Source: Lysinibacillus sp. FJAT-14745 (GTDB lineage Bacteria; Bacillota; Bacilli; Bacillales_A; Planococcaceae). Taken from it: a DNA stretch of 50,180 nt. Below the pieces are notes generated by a model. That model did not search any database, was not told the DNA's origin, and saw nothing but the letters and a program-made list of their open reading frames with translations. Position numbers and translations under genes: made by a program. Below, piece after piece: positions 7,314-24,614 of the stretch (its first letter is position 1; each line of letters begins with the position of its first letter). Location: assembly GCF_001275675.1 (NCBI RefSeq), contig NZ_LITM01000006.1:19567-69746 (forward strand), given 5' to 3'.

Positions 7314-8279
7314 ATGCCGACAAATCATATTAACCATCATCACCTTGCGGCAGAATGGATGAAACAGTTTCGTCCTTATGCAAAAGAGGGGAAATGCGCA
7401 AGCTATATTCCTGCTTTATCAGAAAAAGATCCAAATCAATTAGCTATTTCGATTATCGGACCAGATAGTGACGAAATCAAAGCAGGAGAGGCAACTGAAC
7501 TGTTTACTCTGCAAAGTGTTTCAAAAGTTGTTACATTTATTTTAGCGTGTATGGAACGGGGATTACCCTATGTTTTAGAGCGAGTAGATGTTGAACCGAC
7601 AGGCGATACCTTCAATTCAATCATTCGACTTGAAAGTCATCAGCCTGGAAAACCTTTTAACCCAATGATTAATGCAGGAGCGATTACAGTATCCTCTATG
7701 CTTGACGGAAATTCACCACAAGAGAAGGTTTCAAAAATCTTAAATTTTTTAGAACAAATCATTGGCAAAAAAATAAGGGTAAATGAAGAGGTTTTCCAAT
7801 CTGAATGGCAAACGGCTAATCGTAATCGATCATTAGCATACTATTTAATGGATTCAGGCTTTTTAGATTGCCCTGTAGAGGAGGCATTGGAGGTTTATTT
7901 GAAACAATGTGCTATTGAAGTCAATGTTTCGGATTTAGCGATGATTGGTTTAGTCATCGCCAATGATGGCTATCATCCTCTATTAAAAACCCAACTCTTT
8001 CCAAAGCAAGTGGCAAAATTAGCGAAGGCATTAATGGTTACTTGCGGTATGTATAATGCTTCTGGTAAATTTGCTGCATTTATTGGGTTACCTGCTAAAA
8101 GTGGTGTCTCTGGCGCAATTTTGGTGGCTGTACCAAGTCACGCAGGCTTAGATTCACCATTTCCTGCTGGCTGCGGTATTGGCATTTATGGACCAGCCAT
8201 TGATACCATCGGGAACAGTGTAGCGGGTGTGAATTTACTAAAGCATATCGCTACCGAGTGGAATATGAATATTTTTTAA
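7314..8279 (+). CDS. glsA: Glutaminase
   Basis: Hydrolyses L-glutamine to glutamate and ammonia (beta-lactamase-like serine glutaminase family). The 321 residues are close to the usual ~310. The catalytic Ser-x-x-Lys is LQSVSK (Ser68/Lys71). Other family blocks are PGKPFNPMINAGAI, the ANRNRSLAYYLMDSGF segment, SDLAMIGLVIANDGYHP and the C-terminal PAKSGVSGAILVAVP. GAAAGGAGA lies before the ATG at 7314. It is a single-gene unit between two terminators. Its neighbour, the AbgB remnant, also concerns glutamate-releasing chemistry, but nothing else ties them together. Confidence 0.95.
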   Translation: MPTNHINHHHLAAEWMKQFRPYAKEGKCASYIPALSEKDPNQLAISIIGPDSDEIKAGEATELFTLQSVSKVVTFILACMERGLPYVLERVDVEPTGDTFNSIIRLESHQPGKPFNPMINAGAITVSSMLDGNSPQEKVSKILNFLEQIIGKKIRVNEEVFQSEWQTANRNRSLAYYLMDSGFLDCPVEEALEVYLKQCAIEVNVSDLAMIGLVIANDGYHPLLKTQLFPKQVAKLAKALMVTCGMYNASGKFAAFIGLPAKSGVSGAILVAVPSHAGLDSPFPAGCGIGIYGPAIDTIGNSVAGVNLLKHIATEWNMNIF

Positions 8280-8421: not shown

Positions 8422-9771
8422 TTAGCGTATTGCTTTCTTTCTTTTCATTTTATAAATAATTAGTAGCATAATAAACCAAATTGGTGTTAGCAGTAATGCA
8501 GTACGTGTTGCCTCTGAAATGAACATGACTACTAATAGAAATGCAAAAAAGGCAAGTACTAAATAGTTTACGAACGGAGTAAAAGGTGCCTTGAAAATCG
8601 ATGCTTCATGAAGTGCACGATTTCTACGTTTATAAATGATATGAGAGATTAATATTATACTCCACACCCAGATAAAGCAAATTGCACTAATCGTTGTAAC
8701 AACACTAAAGGCGTTTTCAGGCATTAATTTACTTAGTAATGCACCGGCGGAAACTACAATTGCAGAAACAATGAGTGCGTTACTTGGTACACTGTTTTTA
8801 TTGAGCTTTGCAAACGTTGGTGAAGCTTGCTTGTTGTTGCCAAGATTAAAAAGCATGCGGCTTGTAGAAAATAAACCACTATTACCGGCCGAAGCAGCAG
8901 ATGTTAGAACGACAAAATTAATAATACCTGCAGCAATTGGAATTCCAGCTAGTGTAAATACTTGTACAAATGGACTACTTGAGGCAGACATTTCAGACCA
9001 AGGATTAATACATAAAATAACAAATAACGCTCCTACGTAGAATAATAAAATACGTAATGGAATTTTGTTAATGGCAGAAGGGATATTTTTTTTAGGATTG
9101 GCCGTTTCTGCAGCAGAAACGCCTACTAATTCGACACCAACAAAAGCGAAAACAACCATTTGGAATGCCATAAGGAAACCGTTTAGGCCGTTCGGGAATA
9201 ACCCGCCATGTGCCCAAAGATTTTCAACAGAAACTGTGCCAGAGCTTGTTTGAAAGCCTGTAAATAACATGATTAGTCCAATAATAATCAGCGCAACAAT
9301 GGTGATGACTTTTATAAGGGCAAACCAAAATTCTAGTTCGCCAAATAGTTTTACAGACAATAAATTCAAAATTAATAACAGTACTAAACAGCCAATTGCA
9401 GGCACCCATTGGGGTATATCAAACCAATATTGTATATAAACGCCGACAGCAATAATATCTGCCATAGCAGTCATAATCCAGCAAAACCAGTATGTCCAGC
9501 CAGTGATGTAACCTGCCCAAGGGCCTATGTATTCGGATGCAAAATCAGTAAATGATGTATAGCCAGCATTCGATAATAATAGTTCGCCTAATGCCCGCAT
9601 GACAAAAAATAAGGCAGTTCCGACAATTAGATAGGCAAAGAGGATGGAAGGTCCCGCTAAAGCAATGGCTTTACCTGATCCTAAAAATAAACCAGTACCT
9701 ATTGTTCCGCCAATCGCAATGAGCTGCACATGGCGATTTTTTAAATCACGTTTTAATTGTTGTTGTTCCAC
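8422..9771 (-). CDS. Amino-acid permease, CycA type (D-serine/D-alanine/glycine:H+ symporter family)
   Basis: APC-superfamily transporter with about 12 membrane helices. The N-terminal block LKNRHVQLIAIGGTIGTGLF, followed by GSGKAIALAGPSILFAY, then FVMRALGELLLSN and GPWAGYITGWTYWFCWIMTAMADI, closely follows E. coli CycA. That suggests uptake of glycine, D-alanine and related amino acids, and a glycine riboswitch in the leader independently supports glycine as a substrate. In-frame TTG at 9786 is possible, but GAGGGGG followed by six bases points to the GTG at 9771, giving a 449-residue product beginning MEQQQLKRDLKNRH. Regulation is likely by premature termination in the leader at 9812-9842. 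Confidence 0.88.
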   Translation of the reverse strand: MEQQQLKRDLKNRHVQLIAIGGTIGTGLFLGSGKAIALAGPSILFAYLIVGTALFFVMRALGELLLSNAGYTSFTDFASEYIGPWAGYITGWTYWFCWIMTAMADIIAVGVYIQYWFDIPQWVPAIGCLVLLLILNLLSVKLFGELEFWFALIKVITIVALIIIGLIMLFTGFQTSSGTVSVENLWAHGGLFPNGLNGFLMAFQMVVFAFVGVELVGVSAAETANPKKNIPSAINKIPLRILLFYVGALFVILCINPWSEMSASSSPFVQVFTLAGIPIAAGIINFVVLTSAASAGNSGLFSTSRMLFNLGNNKQASPTFAKLNKNSVPSNALIVSAIVVSAGALLSKLMPENAFSVVTTISAICFIWVWSIILISHIIYKRRNRALHEASIFKAPFTPFVNYLVLAFFAFLLVVMFISEATRTALLLTPIWFIMLLIIYKMKRKKAIR

Positions 9772-9811
9772 GTTGATCCCCCTCAAAGATGTAAAAACTA
9801 TGACTGGAAAA

Positions 9812-9842: not shown

Positions 9843-9937
9843 GTAAACGACAGAATAACAAATACCGATAACGGATGTTGTATGTAAAAAAAGAAAACAT
9901 TCGTGTGGTATAGCTTTCATGATGAAAGTTGATATTA

Positions 9938-10015
9938 CTCTTCTGTCCTTTTGCCTGAGATAGTGAACCCTTCGGCGACGCAAAATGCGCTCTCTCCAGA
10001 ACTGCTCCTGCTATA
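9938..10015 (-). promoter_or_regulatory. Glycine riboswitch (single aptamer)
   Basis: Read on the minus strand, the sequence contains the glycine-aptamer hallmarks in order: GGAGAGAGCGC, a short hairpin GCGCATTTTGCGT, CGCCGAAGG, CTCAGGCAAAAGGACAGA. The closing stem P1 pairs TTCTG (9997-10001) with CAGAA (9941-9945). Only one aptamer is recognisable; neither flank shows a second GGAGAGA...GGACAGA copy, so it is a singlet rather than the usual tandem. It controls the CycA-type permease through the downstream terminator. Whether glycine switches transport on or off cannot be read directly. Confidence 0.92.
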
Positions 10016-12317: not shown

Positions 12318-13106
12318 ATGGTACTCACAAATCATCAACCCGAAGTAAACAAATTTGAACAGTTAAACAAAGATATTGAACAATTTCCACAGGTGCATCC
12401 TGTAACGCCTGATATGCACATTAAGCATAAAGGTGTATCAAGGCTTGTGATGATCGATCGCTACTCGTTTAAGGATACGGAGAAGAAAACGTTAAAAGCC
12501 GGTGATTTCGTCGTATTAACAGTGAAAGCAGATCCAAAATTCCCTGCACGTGGTTTAGGGACAATCCAAAAGCTTGATATGTCTACAAAAACAGCAGATA
12601 TTTTGATTGAGGAAGATTATCGTAGTGCTTTAGATGATCCAAAAGAGCAAGAAACGGGTGTGATTACGCGTTCAATTGACGTGCTAGAAAAGCCTCTTGA
12701 AATTTTTTATGAACAAATCGCAAAACGAAATGCAACAGGACTTGCTGCTGTTGAAAAAACACCAGAGAAACGCCAAGAATGGTTTGAGAAGTTCTATGCG
12801 CAGTTAGTATCATTAAAATTCATTCCAGCTGGACGAGTTATTTACGGAGCAGGGTCTGAAACAGATGTAACGTTCTTCAACTGTTACGTAATGCCATTTG
12901 TAGCAGATTCACGTGAAGGAATCAGTGATCACCGTAAGCAAGTGATGGAAATTATGAGCCGCGGTGGTGGTGTAGGGACAAATGGTTCGACATTACGTCC
13001 ACGTAACACTTTAGCACGTGGTGTAAATGGTAAATCATCTGGCTCTGTATCATGGTTAGATGATATTGCGAAGCTGACTCATCTTGTCGAACAAGGTGGA
13101 TCCCGT
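12318..13106 (+). CDS. nrdJ: Adenosylcobalamin-dependent ribonucleotide reductase NrdJ, exon 1
   Basis: First of three exons of class II ribonucleotide reductase, which reduces ribonucleotides to deoxyribonucleotides using a cobalamin-generated thiyl radical and so needs no oxygen-dependent small subunit. This exon encodes residues 1-263: an N-terminal extension, then the catalytic barrel start with IPAGRVIYGAGS, FFNCYVMP (redox-active Cys189), SRGGGVGTNGSTLRP and LDDIAKLTHLVEQGGSR. GGGAGG at 12303-12309 fixes the ATG. The apparent stop at 13107 is the first codon of the intron; coding resumes at 14246 with RGAQMIMLADWHPD. Exon lengths 789 + 651 + 1128 bp join in frame to give 855 residues. 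Confidence 0.93.
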
Positions 13107-14245
13107 TAACCGAAAACGGCGGGATTAAAATCTCGTGAATTGCTGGAACACCCTGATAGCTTTTCTTGCTACAACGTAAACTGTGAAGTTAGGCGTGAAT
13201 GCTTGAAAAAAGAAAAGATTGGGCAATCAGCAGCGAAGCATCTATGGAAACGTAGTTGAACGTTCAACGACTATTGAACCTTCCTAAACTTTGAACCACA
13301 TCGGAGGTGGAAGCATGGAAGAAGTAAATCGTATTGTACGGAGACGTCCTTACGAGGCGCGAGACAAAGAACGATTGATTAAAAGAATTATTGAGTTGCA
13401 TGAAAATGGTATGAGCCAAGTTGATATTGCAAAAACACTTAACATAAGTAGAGGAACAATCCTTAGATGGAACAAAGAGCTAGAGCTTTTTAAAGCGAGA
13501 AAGCCTGGTCAAGCGGGAAAGCTGAAAAATAAGAAGTATCATTACGATGAAAACTACTTTAAAAATATTGATACACCCAATAAGGCTTATTTAGTAGGTT
13601 ATATTACTGGTGATGGTACTCTACATGACCGTGGTAAATCTAAACGTCTTATTTTATCACTTGCTGAGCAGGACCGGCAATTACTTGAAGATATAGCAAA
13701 AGAATTGACTATGCAAGAAGCGATTAAATTCCGTAAGCGATATGCACCAAATGAACAAAACAAATACTCTTTAATAATAAATTCAACAGAAATGTGCAAT
13801 GATTTAATGAGGTTGGGAATTAAACCTCGAAAAACAGGTTTTGAAAGTTGGATTGATTTTAAAAATGAGGATTTGCAATGGACCTATTTAAGAGGTTTTT
13901 TTGATGCAGATGGCCATTTCTCAAAGCGTGGGAGAATAGGTTTTACGGGTAGTCGCGAAATGCTTTTATCGTTACTAAAATTTTTGCATAATCAACAACT
14001 AGCTTTGACGGTCCATAAAGTTTACCCAAAACAAGGATGCGTTGATTTATTTATTAATCGAAAAGATGACGTGTTAAAGATTGTTCGTAAGTTATACGCA
14101 CATGGTTCCATACAGCTCAATAGAAAATATGAAAAAATCAAATCCTTCTTTGATGATATAGTCTGATCTTATGTGAAAGCATAAGAATGTGGCAGAAATG
14201 ACCACATCGAAAAAGTATTTTAAAATATTTTTTTGTAACAAAAAG
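13107..14245 (+). mobile_element. Group I intron 1 in nrdJ (1,139 bp)
   Basis: Splice sites follow group I rules. The exon ends in T at 13106 and the intron ends in G at 14245. Exon ATCCCGT (13100-13106) pairs with the internal guide GCGGGAT (13119-13125), giving P1 with the expected U-G wobble at the cut site, and ACG (13116-13118) can pair with the first CGT of exon 2 (P10). Core-like blocks are present: AATTGCTGGAACACC (P), AATCAGCAGCGAAGC (Q), GTTCAACGACTAT (R) and GATATAGTCTGA (S). Removal restores GGSR|RGAQM, continuous in class II reductases. The intron hosts a LAGLIDADG endonuclease gene. Confidence 0.93.
13315..14166 (+). CDS. LAGLIDADG homing endonuclease encoded in nrdJ intron 1
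   Basis: A 283-residue protein that should cut intronless nrdJ alleles and drive homing. Two LAGLIDADG helices are present, LVGYITGDG (~93-101) and LRGFFDADG (~192-200), each ending in the catalytic acidic residue, so it would act as a monomer. Residues ~18-60 contain a helix-turn-helix (GMSQVDIAKTLNISRGTILRW) that may help DNA binding. A TTG at 13291 is in frame, but CGGAGGTGG just before the ATG at 13315 marks the likely start. The last codons (FFDDIV, stop) overlap the intron's S segment, so coding and ribozyme sequence are shared. No disruption is visible. Confidence 0.9.
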   Translation: MEEVNRIVRRRPYEARDKERLIKRIIELHENGMSQVDIAKTLNISRGTILRWNKELELFKARKPGQAGKLKNKKYHYDENYFKNIDTPNKAYLVGYITGDGTLHDRGKSKRLILSLAEQDRQLLEDIAKELTMQEAIKFRKRYAPNEQNKYSLIINSTEMCNDLMRLGIKPRKTGFESWIDFKNEDLQWTYLRGFFDADGHFSKRGRIGFTGSREMLLSLLKFLHNQQLALTVHKVYPKQGCVDLFINRKDDVLKIVRKLYAHGSIQLNRKYEKIKSFFDDIV

Positions 14246-14896
14246 CGTGGGGCACAAATGATTATGCTGGCAGATTGGCATCCTGATATCGTGGAATTTA
14301 TTATTTCGAAAATGCAAAATCCACGTATTCTACGATACCTAATCGAAAATACAACGGATGAAACGATCATTCGTCTAGCAAAAGAAAAATTAAACTTTAA
14401 ACCTCTTTCATTCCAAGAGGAAGCTATGTATCAAGGGATTGTTAACTATAAAGGTATTGAAGGCTTAGGCGGTTTTGATACGGCTATTATTCGTGAAGCG
14501 GAAAACAAACTACGCGATGGTGGTACTTATACTGTTCACAATCCAGAGTTTTTAACGGGTGCAAATATTTCTGTAACATTAACAAAAGAATTTATGCAAG
14601 CTGTAGAAAATGACGCTGATTTTGAGCTTCGTTTCCCAGCTGTTGAAGAATATACAAAAGAAGAGATGGCTATTTACAACAGTGAGTGGCATAAAGTTGG
14701 AGATGTGCGCGAATGGGAGAAAATGGGCTATAAAGTACGCACTTACCGCACGATTAAAGCGAAGGAATTATGGAATTTAATCAACGTTTGTGCAACATAC
14801 TCTGCAGAGCCAGGTATTTTCTTCATCGACAACGCTAATGACATGACAAATGCAAAAGCATATGGTCAAAGTGTTGTAGCGACAAACCCGTGTGGT
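14246..14896 (+). CDS. nrdJ: NrdJ exon 2
   Basis: Encodes residues 264-480 of the ribonucleotide reductase: RGAQMIMLADWHPDIVEFI at its start, TVHNPEFLTGANISVTL, AYGQSVVATNPCG at its end. The final codons carry the thiyl-radical cysteine of the N-x-C-x-E active-site motif (Cys479 in the spliced protein). The exon stops after the glycine codon GGT, between the catalytic cysteine and glutamate. Unspliced, translation would add GLRLTLKIAG and stop. The first residues seen when reading from 14189 belong to the intron, not to the protein. Confidence 0.93.
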
Positions 14897-15661
14897 GGAC
14901 TTCGCCTCACGTTAAAAATTGCGGGATAAAGCGGGAAGGCTGAGAAATAGTAATTAACGATACTTTCAACATGATTCTTATTTGTTAGGTGATAACATGA
15001 CAAAACAATGTAGGAAGTGTAATAAGATAAAAAATTTAAGTTGTTTTGGAAAACGATCTGACAGTAAAGATGGCTATAGAAACGATTGTAAAGAGTGTGT
15101 ATCTCAAAGAGTGAAGGTTTGGGGAAAAAATAACTTTTGAAAAAATCGAACAAAATCTTTTAATAATGGCTCTGGAAGAAGAAATGGAAAAGCTGGAGAT
15201 ATTATTAGAAATTCAGACCCTATATCTGAGAATGACTTGAAAAAGCTCTATGAAACTGAACCATTTTGTAGCTATTGTAAAATTGAACTTGAAAAAGGAA
15301 CAAGTAGTATTTGAACATAAAACCCCTCTAAGTAGAGGTGGAAAGCATTGTATCCAGAATGTTTGTATAAGCTGTCATGATTGTAATCAACTTAAAGGGA
15401 CAAGAACGGAAGATGAATTTCAGAAGTTCATATTTAGTTACATTGAAAGATTTCGTTAATTATTTGCTAATCCGAACCGAAGGCTAAAGGTAAAACTTCA
15501 GTCAGGGGCAACGCATACCCGGTGATCCTACCTAGTAGACTATAATCCGGGCACGAGACCGCAACATTACAGAAAGAAGTGTAATGAAAATGTATGCTGA
15601 ACTTGCAGGAATTGAACTGTAAGAACTAGAGGATAAAAAGCCTTTAGGATAACAATAATTG
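14897..15661 (+). mobile_element. Group I intron 2 in nrdJ (765 bp), at the active-site codons
   Basis: The exon ends in T (14896) and the intron ends in G (15661). Exon CGTGTGGT pairs with guide GCCTCACG (14904-14911) with one mismatch and the terminal U-G wobble; TTC (14901-14903) can pair with the GAA that opens exon 3 (P10). AAAATTGCGGGATAAAG is a P-like block, and CCTAGTAGACTATAATCCGGGC resembles the core of the phage T4 td intron, pointing to a IA2-like subgroup. Removal restores NPCG|EQPLAPYSVCN. It contains a broken HNH endonuclease gene. Confidence 0.9.
14997..15459 (+). pseudogene. Decayed HNH homing endonuclease in nrdJ intron 2
   Basis: The reading frame opens at ATG 14997 (MTKQCRKCNKIKNLSCFGK, a four-cysteine zinc-binding start) but hits an in-frame TGA at 15138. 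It continues in the same frame to FCSYCKIELEKGTSSI, where a second TGA appears at 15312. Skipping one T in the TTT at 15310-15312 restores EHKTPLSRGGKH...CISCHDCNQLKGTRTEDEF, a complete HNH motif ending at 15459. One nonsense codon plus one single-base insertion make it inactive, although the intron itself looks intact. This is the state expected of a homing gene after fixation. Confidence 0.82.
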
Positions 15662-16789
15662 GAACAACCACTTGCACCATATTCTGTGTGTAACTTAGCA
15701 GCTGTGAACTTAGCACAGTTTGCAAATAAAGAAGATCAAACAATTGATTACGAAGCACTGCGTGAAACAGTTCGTGTTGGTGTTCGTATGCAAGATAACG
15801 TTATTGATGCTACACCATACTTCTTAGAAGAAAACCGTGTACAAGCTCTTGGAGAGCGTCGTGTTGGCTTGGGCGTAATGGGCTTAGCGGACTTACTTAT
15901 TTATTGTGAGAAAGAATATGGCTCAGAAGCGGGTAATGAGCTAGTTGATGAAATCTTTAAAACGATTGCTGAGACTGCGTATGAGGCGTCAACTGAGCTT
16001 GCAAAAGAACGCGGTAGCTTCCCATTCCTTGTAGGAGCAACAGAGGAAGAGACAGCACGTTTACGTAAAGCATTTACTGAAACAGGCTACATGCAAAAAA
16101 TGCCTGCGCACATTAAGGAACAAATTTTAGCAACAGGTATTCGTAACTCGCATTTATTGACAGTAGCCCCAACTGGTTCTACTGGTACGATGGTTGGCGT
16201 GGCAACTGGTCTTGAGCCATACTTCTCGTTCACATATTACCGTTCTGGTCGTCTAGGTAAATTCATCGAGGTAAAAGCAGAAATCGTTCATGAATATTTA
16301 GAACGTCATCCAGAAGTAAATGAGAATGACCTTCCTGAATGGTTCGTTACAGCGATGGAGTTAAAACCAGAGGCACACGCGGATGTGCAATGTATCATCC
16401 AAAAATGGATCGATTCATCCATTTCAAAAACTGTAAACGCACCAAAAGGTTATACAGTACAACAAGTTGAAAAAGTATATGAGCGCTTATATAAAGGCGG
16501 TGCTAAAGGTGGTACGGTCTATGTAGATGGTAGCCGTGACTCACAAGTACTGACACTAAAAGCTGAAGAAAATGATATGGATCAACTATCATTTGAAGAA
16601 GAATTAGTAGAAGAGCCAACAAAACGTCCTGTTGTATTAGTAGATACGATTCAAGCGTTAGAATCGACAACAGTTATCGGTTCGGATGTAGGGAATACTT
16701 GTCCAGTATGCCGTAAAGGAACTGTTGAAGAAATCGGCGGCTGTAATACATGTACAAACTGTGCTGCACAACTAAAATGTGGCCTATAA
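15662..16789 (+). CDS. nrdJ: NrdJ exon 3
   Basis: Encodes residues 481-855: EQPLAPYSVCNLAAVNLAQF (beginning with the active-site Glu481), ENRVQALGERRVGLGVMGLADLL, NSHLLTVAPTGSTGTMVG, and a C-terminal cysteine-rich tail with CPVCRKGTVEEIGGCNTCTNCAAQLKCG. The tail supplies the CxxC pairs that re-reduce the active site and probably bind zinc. The exon is in frame with exons 1 and 2. A terminator follows 8 bp downstream, so nrdJ is a one-gene transcript. Confidence 0.93.
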   Translation, partial: EQPLAPYSVCNLAAVNLAQFANKEDQTIDYEALRETVRVGVRMQDNVIDATPYFLEENRVQALGERRVGLGVMGLADLLIYCEKEYGSEAGNELVDEIFKTIAETAYEASTELAKERGSFPFLVGATEEETARLRKAFTETGYMQKMPAHIKEQILATGIRNSHLLTVAPTGSTGTMVGVATGLEPYFSFTYYRSGRLGKFIEVKAEIVHEYLERHPEVNENDLPEWFVTAMELKPEAHADVQCIIQKWIDSSISKTVNAPKGYTVQQVEKVYERLYKGGAKGGTVYVDGSRDSQVLTLKAEENDMDQLSFEEELVEEPTKRPVVLVDTIQALESTTVIGSDVGNTCPVCRKGTVEEIGGCNTCTNCAAQLKCGL

Positions 16790-24230: not shown

Positions 24231-24614
24231 TTATTTCAGCAGAAGTCTCCCACCTCTATAGGTGGTGAGATGAATGCAAATGTAAGCTATTTTTCAGCGG
24301 GTGTCCAAACGCCTGCTGAAATAGAAGAACTCAGTCTAAGATCGCCACGTCCTGTGGCGATCTTAGACTGAGTGACCAACATCATGTTGGCCTAAAGCCT
24401 CCGGCGGATGTCATGGAATCGGAAAGGAGTTCTTAGGGGATGTTAGCCTAAAACCATCGCATCCATGCGATAACGGCTAACTGACCTGCATCGGTAAAAA
24501 CGCCACGTCCTGTGGCATTACCGAAATGACCGACGTCGTGTCGGCCCTCACGCAGGCCTAAGCACAAAGCCGATTCCAGACGCAATTATGCCAAGGCACA
24601 ATTGATTTTTTTTT
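24231..24614. repeat. 380-bp element of nested hairpins ending in a terminator
   Basis: Almost every base can pair. TATTTCAGCAG (24232) with CTGCTGAAATA (24313), enclosing CCACC/GGTGG; a 20-bp perfect stem ACTCAGTCTAAGATCGCCAC (24329-24348) with its complement around loop GTCCT; CCAAC/GTTGG (24376-24390); GTTAGCC (24442) with GGCTAAC (24475) around TCGCATCCATGCGA; TCGGTAA/TTACCGA around GCCAC GTCCT GTGGC; CCGAC/GTCGG. A long-range pair joins GGAATCGG (24415) and CCGATTCC (24570). The end forms CAATTaTGCC aa GGCAcAATTG plus T9, a terminator. A decayed relative of its right end is at 30513. No protein frame. Might be a structured RNA or a palindrome-rich mobile repeat. Confidence 0.75.

Follow-up and report, generated by a model that had tools for sequence, protein, structure and literature searches.

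How can a working ribonucleotide reductase be made from a gene that lies in three separate frames with stop codons between them? This question is raised by nrdJ of Lysinibacillus sp. FJAT-14745, which is located in the 50,180-nt stretch of DNA analyzed here (assembly GCF_001275675.1, contig NZ_LITM01000006.1, positions 19,567 to 69,746 of the forward strand; hereafter, the window). Judging from its sequence, it is very probable that nrdJ gives rise to one pre-mRNA, that two group IA introns splice themselves out of it, and that the product is an 855-residue, B12-dependent reductase. Reductase genes have long been known as homes of introns, and an interrupted nrdJ is not rare in this Lysinibacillus-like genus; the nrdJ of the window is a well-supported case of a known phenomenon in an unusual genome-wide setting.

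The Three Frames of nrdJ and Their Joined Product

All coordinates of nrdJ features are positions in the window, on the plus strand. The gene is divided as follows, with a slash marking the insertion point within a motif:

12318–13106 (+): nrdJ exon 1, 263 residues, ending in GGSR
13107–14245 (+): predicted group I intron 1, IA type, 1139 nt, after Arg263 (GSR/RGAQM)
14246–14896 (+): nrdJ exon 2, 217 residues, RGAQM to NPCG
14897–15661 (+): predicted group I intron 2, IA type with P7.1 and P7.2, 765 nt, inside the NPCG/E motif
15662–16789 (+): nrdJ exon 3, 375 residues, beginning EQPLA

The three frames match successive parts of NF005991, the NCBIfam model of B12-dependent (class II) ribonucleotide reductase, namely positions 4–263 (498 bits), 264–481 (437 bits) and 481–858 (745 bits, in a scan begun at 15659); position 481 occurs on both exons 2 and 3 because the exon 2 frame, as scanned, ran one residue into the intron. 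Each exon alone scores below the cut-off of 854 bits, whereas the joined exons give a single match of 1721 bits (residues 4–855 to positions 4–858 of 858). By this curated cut-off, the joined product is a class II B12-dependent reductase. An earlier note on this DNA had described the three frames as consecutive parts of NrdJ, with these coordinates, and their joined product as continuous and 855 residues long, and the profile matches agree with it on both counts.

A relative of exon 3 is encoded in 224 stretches, the best 80 of which were kept for counting insertion sites; the closest named relative by exon 3 among these is Lysinibacillus sphaericus SDF0037 (99% identity). The ratio of nonsynonymous to synonymous substitution rates (dN/dS) per exon is 0.02–0.06 against two relatives with an insertion at site 1 (L015 and L016) and 0.01–0.04 against three intronless relatives (L017, L019, and L025, with exon 1 compared over its last 600 nt). 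These ratios indicate that nrdJ is alive and that its exons are under strong purifying selection. They also bear on the view that nrdJ is broken and on its way out, that its insertions no longer splice, and that NrdE and NrdF do the work. The genome does contain nrdE and nrdF, and the HNH open reading frame (ORF) in intron 2 is broken. However, a gene that could not be spliced is not expected to show ratios of 0.01–0.06 in all three exons; the ribozyme helices have been kept by compensatory change, and nrdE is itself split by an intron. Loss of nrdJ function is therefore very unlikely.

Group I Cores of the Two Insertions

Judged by sequence, each insertion is an IA-type group I intron. The predicted core includes the following elements:

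13099–13126 (+): P1 of intron 1, 8 bp between exon GATCCCGT (13099–13106) and guide GCGGGATT (13119–13126)
13131–13364 (+): P3 of intron 1, TCTCGTG (13131–13137) with CGCGAGA (13358–13364), double change in 3 of 7 pairs
13269–14163 (+): P7 (guanosine site) of intron 1, GACTA (13269–13273) with TAGTC (14159–14163), invariant in the set
14919–15564 (+): P3 of intron 2, TTGCGG (14919–14924) with CCGCAA (15559–15564), double change in 1 of 6 pairs
15513–15597 (+): P7 of intron 2, GCATAC (15513–15518) with GTATGC (15592–15597)

The 5′ cut follows a U (U13106 in intron 1, U14896 in intron 2), and the last residue of each intron is a G (G14245 and G15661). The P1 helix of intron 2 pairs exon CGTGTGGT (14889–14896) with guide GCCTCACG (14904–14911), and the junction pair of P1 is U-G in both introns (U13106 with G13119; U14896 with G14904). 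The P10 pairings span 3 bp only: ACG (13116–13118) with CGT (14246–14248), which is possible in intron 1, and TTC (14901–14903) with GAA (15662–15664) in intron 2. P7.1 and P7.2 are present between P7 and P3′ in both introns, a feature that we take to mark subgroup IA; both introns thus appear to belong to this subgroup, taken as a whole and not split among IA1, IA2, and IA3. The naming of these features follows PMC3984707.

Covariation was counted in relatives of each type. For intron 1 (nine sequences, structure P3 to P9.1), 99.6% of 503 cells are paired and 17 of 56 pairs show change on both sides, including 1 of 5 pairs in P7.1 and 3 of 5 in P7.2; none of 500 shuffles reached four of the five covariation measures. 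The set for intron 2 consists of 16 distinct ORF-less introns of the same type, the short enough ones among 30 kept loci (43 of 261 genomes matched). Here, 98.8% of 942 cells are paired, change on both sides occurs in 21 of 59 pairs (3 of 4 in P7.1, 2 of 4 in P7.2), and no shuffle of 500 reached any of the five measures. Five pairs of the intron 2 P7 are invariant, and the sixth is unpaired in 3 of 16; a related intron on contig C9 of the same genome has GCGTA/TACGC as the counterpart, as seen by eye. A chance origin is excluded because relatives have empty sites and the cores covary. The claim of the earlier note that this class II nrdJ contains two group I introns is upheld, and so is its claim of a full-length product, provided that splicing occurs.

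Several points weigh against this assignment. At the gathering cut-off of RF00028, the Rfam group I model (50 bits), the search of the window gave no match at either intron, and neither did a search of 12900–15900 up to an E value of 5. In the genome-wide search, intron 1 scored 42.7 bits (13035–13516) and 26.9 bits (14046–14185), both below 50, and none of the 10 loci that carry the intron 2 type among the best 80 gave an RF00028 match at site 2. The structures were drawn from the same sequences in which pairs were counted, which favors them over the slid controls. In intron 1, 181 of 500 shuffles attained the fifth measure (further pair types), P4 and P7 are invariant and thus silent on covariation, P1 was left outside the pair counts, four of the nine aligned sequences were shortened within the ORF, and the window copy has a U-U in P6. 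In intron 2, P1 and nearly all of P7 are invariant and so lend no covariation support, and P1 holds one internal U-U mismatch. This mismatch tempers the claim of the earlier note that both gaps obey group I rules exactly, which the U and G ends, the guides, the U-G pairs, and the P10 matches otherwise support. The covariance-model search that it had proposed as a check came out against it, since a plain Rfam search missed both introns and the best genome-wide score, for intron 1, stayed under the cut-off.

The shortfall in RF00028 scores can be placed in context. ORF-less relatives of intron 1 pass the model both at the same insertion point (L070, 89.3 bits; L076, 73.9 bits) and one codon on (L041, 74.9 bits; L028, 74.7 bits), and it is likely that the window copy falls below the cut-off because an endonuclease ORF interrupts its core. 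The shortfall of intron 1 lowers the database criterion more than it does the group I assignment. For intron 2, a covariance model built from its 16 relatives (R1) matches the window copy with 173.7 bits at 15417–15669 and 45.8 bits at 14885–15021, and matches 44 of 261 genomes in a search set for the order, a total equal to that covered by the family-level searches. R1 finds the C9 intron at 81.2 bits, and RF00028 finds this intron independently at 43.6 bits, below its cut-off. Through R1 and the C9 intron, intron 2 would be linked to RF00028 indirectly. This case also brings to light a branch of IA introns scoring under the Rfam group I model.

Could the insertions be elements of another kind, namely inteins, group II introns, or IStrons? 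Homing endonuclease domains occur in inteins too, probable IStrons are found elsewhere in this genome, a group II intron lies two codons from site 2 in the relative G047, and RF00028 misses the intron 2 type. Inteins are excluded by stop codons directly after exon 1, where TAA at the 5′ splice site is the first in-frame codon of intron 1, and 30 nt into intron 2 (UAA). As for group II introns, a search of 12900–15900 gave no match in either window intron. The intron ORFs score far below the cut-offs of the IS630 (20.2 of 100 bits) and IscB (27.7 of 175 bits) models, and the group I core was found by covariation. These alternatives were rejected for both window insertions on account of the stops, the lack of a group II match, and the group I core, and we give them practically no chance of being correct.

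A further alternative is that each frame yields a polypeptide of its own and that the three then assemble, with no need of RNA splicing. A split reductase that works without splicing, the nrdA product of phage Aeh1, is described in PMC3653736, and GTG and TTG start codons are present at, or close to, the beginnings of exons 2 and 3. On the contrary, the breaks fall inside the conserved motifs GSR/RGA and NPCG/E, the insertions carry a group I core, and insertion-free alleles exist at the same points; it is extremely unlikely that the frames are used in this manner.

The arrangement of a spliced nrdJ suggests the following course of expression. The gene would be transcribed as a single pre-mRNA, in which the two group IA introns would fold, bind guanosine in P7, excise themselves, and join the exons. 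On unspliced RNA, ribosomes would be halted early in each intron, by the UAA that begins intron 1 or by the one 30 nt into intron 2. We infer from sequence that the introns of the window are capable of self-splicing and homing.

Homing Endonuclease Reading Frames

Each intron carries, or has carried, a putative homing endonuclease:

13315–14166 (+): intron 1 ORF, helix-turn-helix (HTH) and LAGLIDADG_3 homing endonuclease, open, 283 residues from ATG
14997–15459 (+): remnant of a broken HNH homing endonuclease in a peripheral loop of intron 2, as pieces at 14997–15140 (47 residues) and 15250–15459 (69 residues)

In a scan from TTG at 13291, the LAGLIDADG domain of the intron 1 protein exceeds its Pfam cut-off (PF14528, 7.9e-12, 45.7 bits against a cut-off of 22.5), and PF02796 is matched at 2.4e-7. 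The ORF begins at the 3′ strand of P7.1, spans P7.2 and P3′, takes up the loop of P8, and has its final codons over P7′. The endonuclease has 153 homologs; among the 120 listed, the organism, where given, mostly belongs to a Bacillales genus. Intron 1 has the appearance of a complete mobile intron, its endonuclease frame being open.

The HNH frame of intron 2 is no longer intact. Its second piece matches PF14279 (1.4e-8) and PF01844 (2.5e-6), and its first piece matches no Pfam family above cut-off. The same loop holds an open HNH ORF of 161 residues in L153 (PF01844, 5.3e-11) and open ORFs of 159 residues in L149 and L150. Other copies of the intron either lack an ORF or have different ones, of up to 321 residues, in a second loop that by eye is P8. 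Homing endonucleases pass through a cycle of gain, decay, and loss, and the open, broken, different, and absent ORFs across intron 2 copies are as expected from this cycle. Intron 2 resembles a long-standing resident that has kept its ribozyme while its endonuclease decayed.

The exon sequence before intron 2 is uniform. All 11 copies examined (the window and 10 loci) are preceded by the same nine exon bases, CCGTGTGGT. Among the 70 alleles that are empty at site 2 these bases vary, the commonest form being CCATGTGGT (13 alleles), and only 29 have T at position −1; the difference between occupied and empty sites in T at this position (10 vs. 70; Fisher p = 0.0004) is nominal, as the sequences are related. 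The uniform exon end fits guide matching together with co-conversion of exon sequence at homing.

Insertion Points Among Relatives and in the Genus

Among the best 80 loci, the site-1 region is empty in 60 and site 2 is empty in 70. In the empty loci no residue separates the exon matches (gap of 0), except for L086 (−1 at site 1), which was counted as empty; its exon 2 was matched only from residue 75, and a frame slip is possible. Inspection of the junctions by eye sorts the 20 loci occupied in the site-1 region into four kinds:

GSR/RGAQM, the window's own point: 6 loci (L015, L016, L068, L070, L075, L076)
GSRR/G, one codon on: 3 loci (L028, L041, L042)
GSRRG/A, two codons on: 9 loci (L018, L020, L022, L024, L027, L034, L062, L085, L092)
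MLAD/WHP, ten codons on: 2 loci (L077, L080), and L068 seems to carry this insertion too

The last kind (L077, L080, and partly L068) was assigned by eye and counted under the site-1 region, not under site 1 itself. At site 2, all 10 occupied loci share the insertion point of the window. Intron 1 is similar to the intron of L028 (3792–4162; 86% identity over 244 nt and 88% over 100 nt), which lies one codon apart and has a different guide; homologous introns seem to have changed their target by changing the guide. No paper on such sliding of introns was found in the open-licence literature searched.

Two further observations were made in these loci. In other genera of the family, L205, L206, L207, and L208 have an additional nrdJ insertion in exon 3, at or near PTG/STG (residues 172/173). 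Downstream of nrdJ in L016 (L. xylanilyticus), a weak group II match was found at 7616–7775 (33.3 bits, cut-off 32).

A sample of 32 Lysinibacillus-like genomes, including that of the window, was surveyed by reading table rows, and not every insertion was typed. In this sample nrdJ is whole in 10 genomes; 11 have it interrupted in the site-1 region alone, and another 11 in both places. R1 identified the intron 2 type in 10 of the 11 doubly interrupted genomes. In the eleventh, G047, the insertion lies about two codons past site 2 (L209, 3949–6570) and is a group II intron (66.6 bits) with, by eye, a reverse-transcriptase-like ORF of 610 residues; a group I intron (53.5 bits) lies in its site-1 region, so that two classes of intron reside in one reductase gene. 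The earlier note had called two introns in nrdJ unusual. This may hold against bacteria at large (PMC3984707), but not within the genus, where nrdJ is interrupted in 22 of 32 genomes. The genus provides a natural series, with empty sites and one or two insertions, with open, broken, or absent endonucleases, with points one codon apart, and with the group II intron of G047 in the same motif. This series could be used to study how introns become established in an essential gene and whether they have a part in its regulation.

A Second Interrupted Reductase Gene

If NrdJ were the sole aerobic reductase, as the earlier note supposed in case nrdE and nrdF were absent, its splicing would be indispensable. 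However, the search for these genes that the note had proposed found both: class I nrdE (434 and 303 residues) and an uninterrupted nrdF lie outside the window on contig C21 (63166–66024; L008), and the idea that NrdJ is the only reductase of this genome was rejected. A cobalamin riboswitch (98.9 bits) precedes nrdE and nrdF, an arrangement that would let the class I enzyme take over at B12 shortage. No nrdD was found in the assembly, and a PF02867 search gave no large-subunit gene beyond nrdJ and nrdE; we infer that the genome has no reductase other than those found by the assembly searches.

The nrdE gene is interrupted as well: a group I intron of 341 nt (RF00028, 85.5 bits) sits after SSNLC and before TEIFQNM, where the relative L213 (G056) is joined. 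In the shared model TIGR02504, exon 1 of nrdE ends at 282 and exon 2 of nrdJ at 283, which places NLC/TE of nrdE one codon before NPCG/E of nrdJ. We take these to be the sites of the catalytic cysteine and glutamate. The matches of the nrdE intron to nrdJ introns are short (38 nt to L068, L077, and L080, and 18 nt more to L080), and its origin as a recent copy of either window intron was rejected on that account.

Since nrdE is split and nrdD was not found, both known routes to deoxynucleoside triphosphates (dNTPs) would depend on group I splicing. The dependence of dNTP supply on RNA splicing, as proposed in the earlier note, is thus likely, though not by way of a sole NrdJ. With every large-subunit gene found being split by an intron, splicing by a ribozyme derived from a parasite looks essential for growth. 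The only two large-subunit genes found hold three group I introns, and in two cases the insertion falls in one and the same motif, the catalytic NxCxE. A more far-reaching possibility is that splicing, for which guanosine is a cofactor and which is in competition with translation, acts as a shared checkpoint that gates all de novo dNTP supply, atop the B12 riboswitch that would choose between the two enzymes; we regard such a role as unlikely.

In the genus, nrdE is interrupted in 5 of 32 genomes. The interruption occurs in the genome of the window, G031, G047, G050, and G051, and was read in sequence for all of these save G031. RF00028 confirms the nrdE introns of the present genome and of G050 (85.2 bits). 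In G047 and G051, nrdE is interrupted by 1092 nt at the position used in the present genome, and these two insertions have the same ends as the one here; they gave no RF00028 match up to an E value of 0.01 and no R1 match, and their type therefore rests on the shared ends. An uninterrupted large-subunit gene was not found in four of the 32 genomes (the present one, G047, G050, and G051), and nrdD was found in none of the 32. Twelve genomes without an nrdE match at 1e-50 were considered as nrdJ-only, which was rejected because the PF02867 search revealed an nrdE-type gene of about 702 residues in all 12.

Relation to Known Introns and Phages

Meng et al. reportedly described in 2007 a group I intron with an insertion sequence in a cyanobacterial reductase gene, said to be of class II and from Trichodesmium. 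That case likewise concerns a bacterial reductase gene interrupted by a group I intron; the nrdJ introns differ from it in carrying LAGLIDADG and HNH ORFs instead of an insertion sequence. Nord et al. are said to have studied the nrdE intron of B. anthracis, also in 2007. The latter differs from the present case in that it is a single intron in a class I gene. The B. anthracis intron also appears in PMC6145125.

According to PMC3984707 and PMC3653736, group I introns occur in nrdE and nrdF of Bacillus and of the SP-beta, Twort, and Brochothrix A9 phages, and the former source lists Bacillus recA and nrdE, along with some nrdE genes of cyanobacteria, as genes that harbor introns. The nrdE/nrdF introns resemble those of the window in being of group I, often several per gene, near conserved residues of the reductase, and equipped with homing endonuclease ORFs, whereas the host gene here is a chromosomal class II nrdJ. 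RNRdb, as described in PMC2795772, curates over 100 group I introns in reductase genes, which are the same kind of gene and element. No description of group I introns in nrdJ of Bacillaceae was found in the open-licence literature searched.

IStrons have been reported in Lysinibacillus (PMC4227781); they share the group I intron and the genus with the present case, and differ in being coupled to genes of IS607-type transposons and not to homing endonucleases. In this genome, group I matches below the cut-off were seen beside TnpB-like genes (by eye) at L010 (contig C25) and L011 (contig C28, partly masked). These two are probably IStrons, as reported for the genus.

Parts of the intron 1 core are 71–82% identical in DNA to Staphylococcus and other phages among the 20 listed of 142 phage records. 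For intron 2, the 3′ half is 76–88% identical to phages among the 20 listed of 47 such records. No phage or plasmid record covers 80% of intron 1, of intron 2, or of the span 13107–15661. A common history with phage introns is likely, as judged by these identities. The C9 intron (L012, 111135–111402), which is related to intron 2, is located at the end of a long frame resembling a tape-measure protein (by eye) and probably lies in a prophage.

Other RNA Elements

A Bacillaceae-1 RNA is located near nrdE (L008, 6899–6965, minus strand), and the window has two adjacent RNAs of this family at 24320–24390 and 24432–24496 (plus strand). A glycine riboswitch is located in the window at 9933–10009 (minus strand), upstream of a gene resembling an amino-acid permease (8422–9786, minus strand, by eye).

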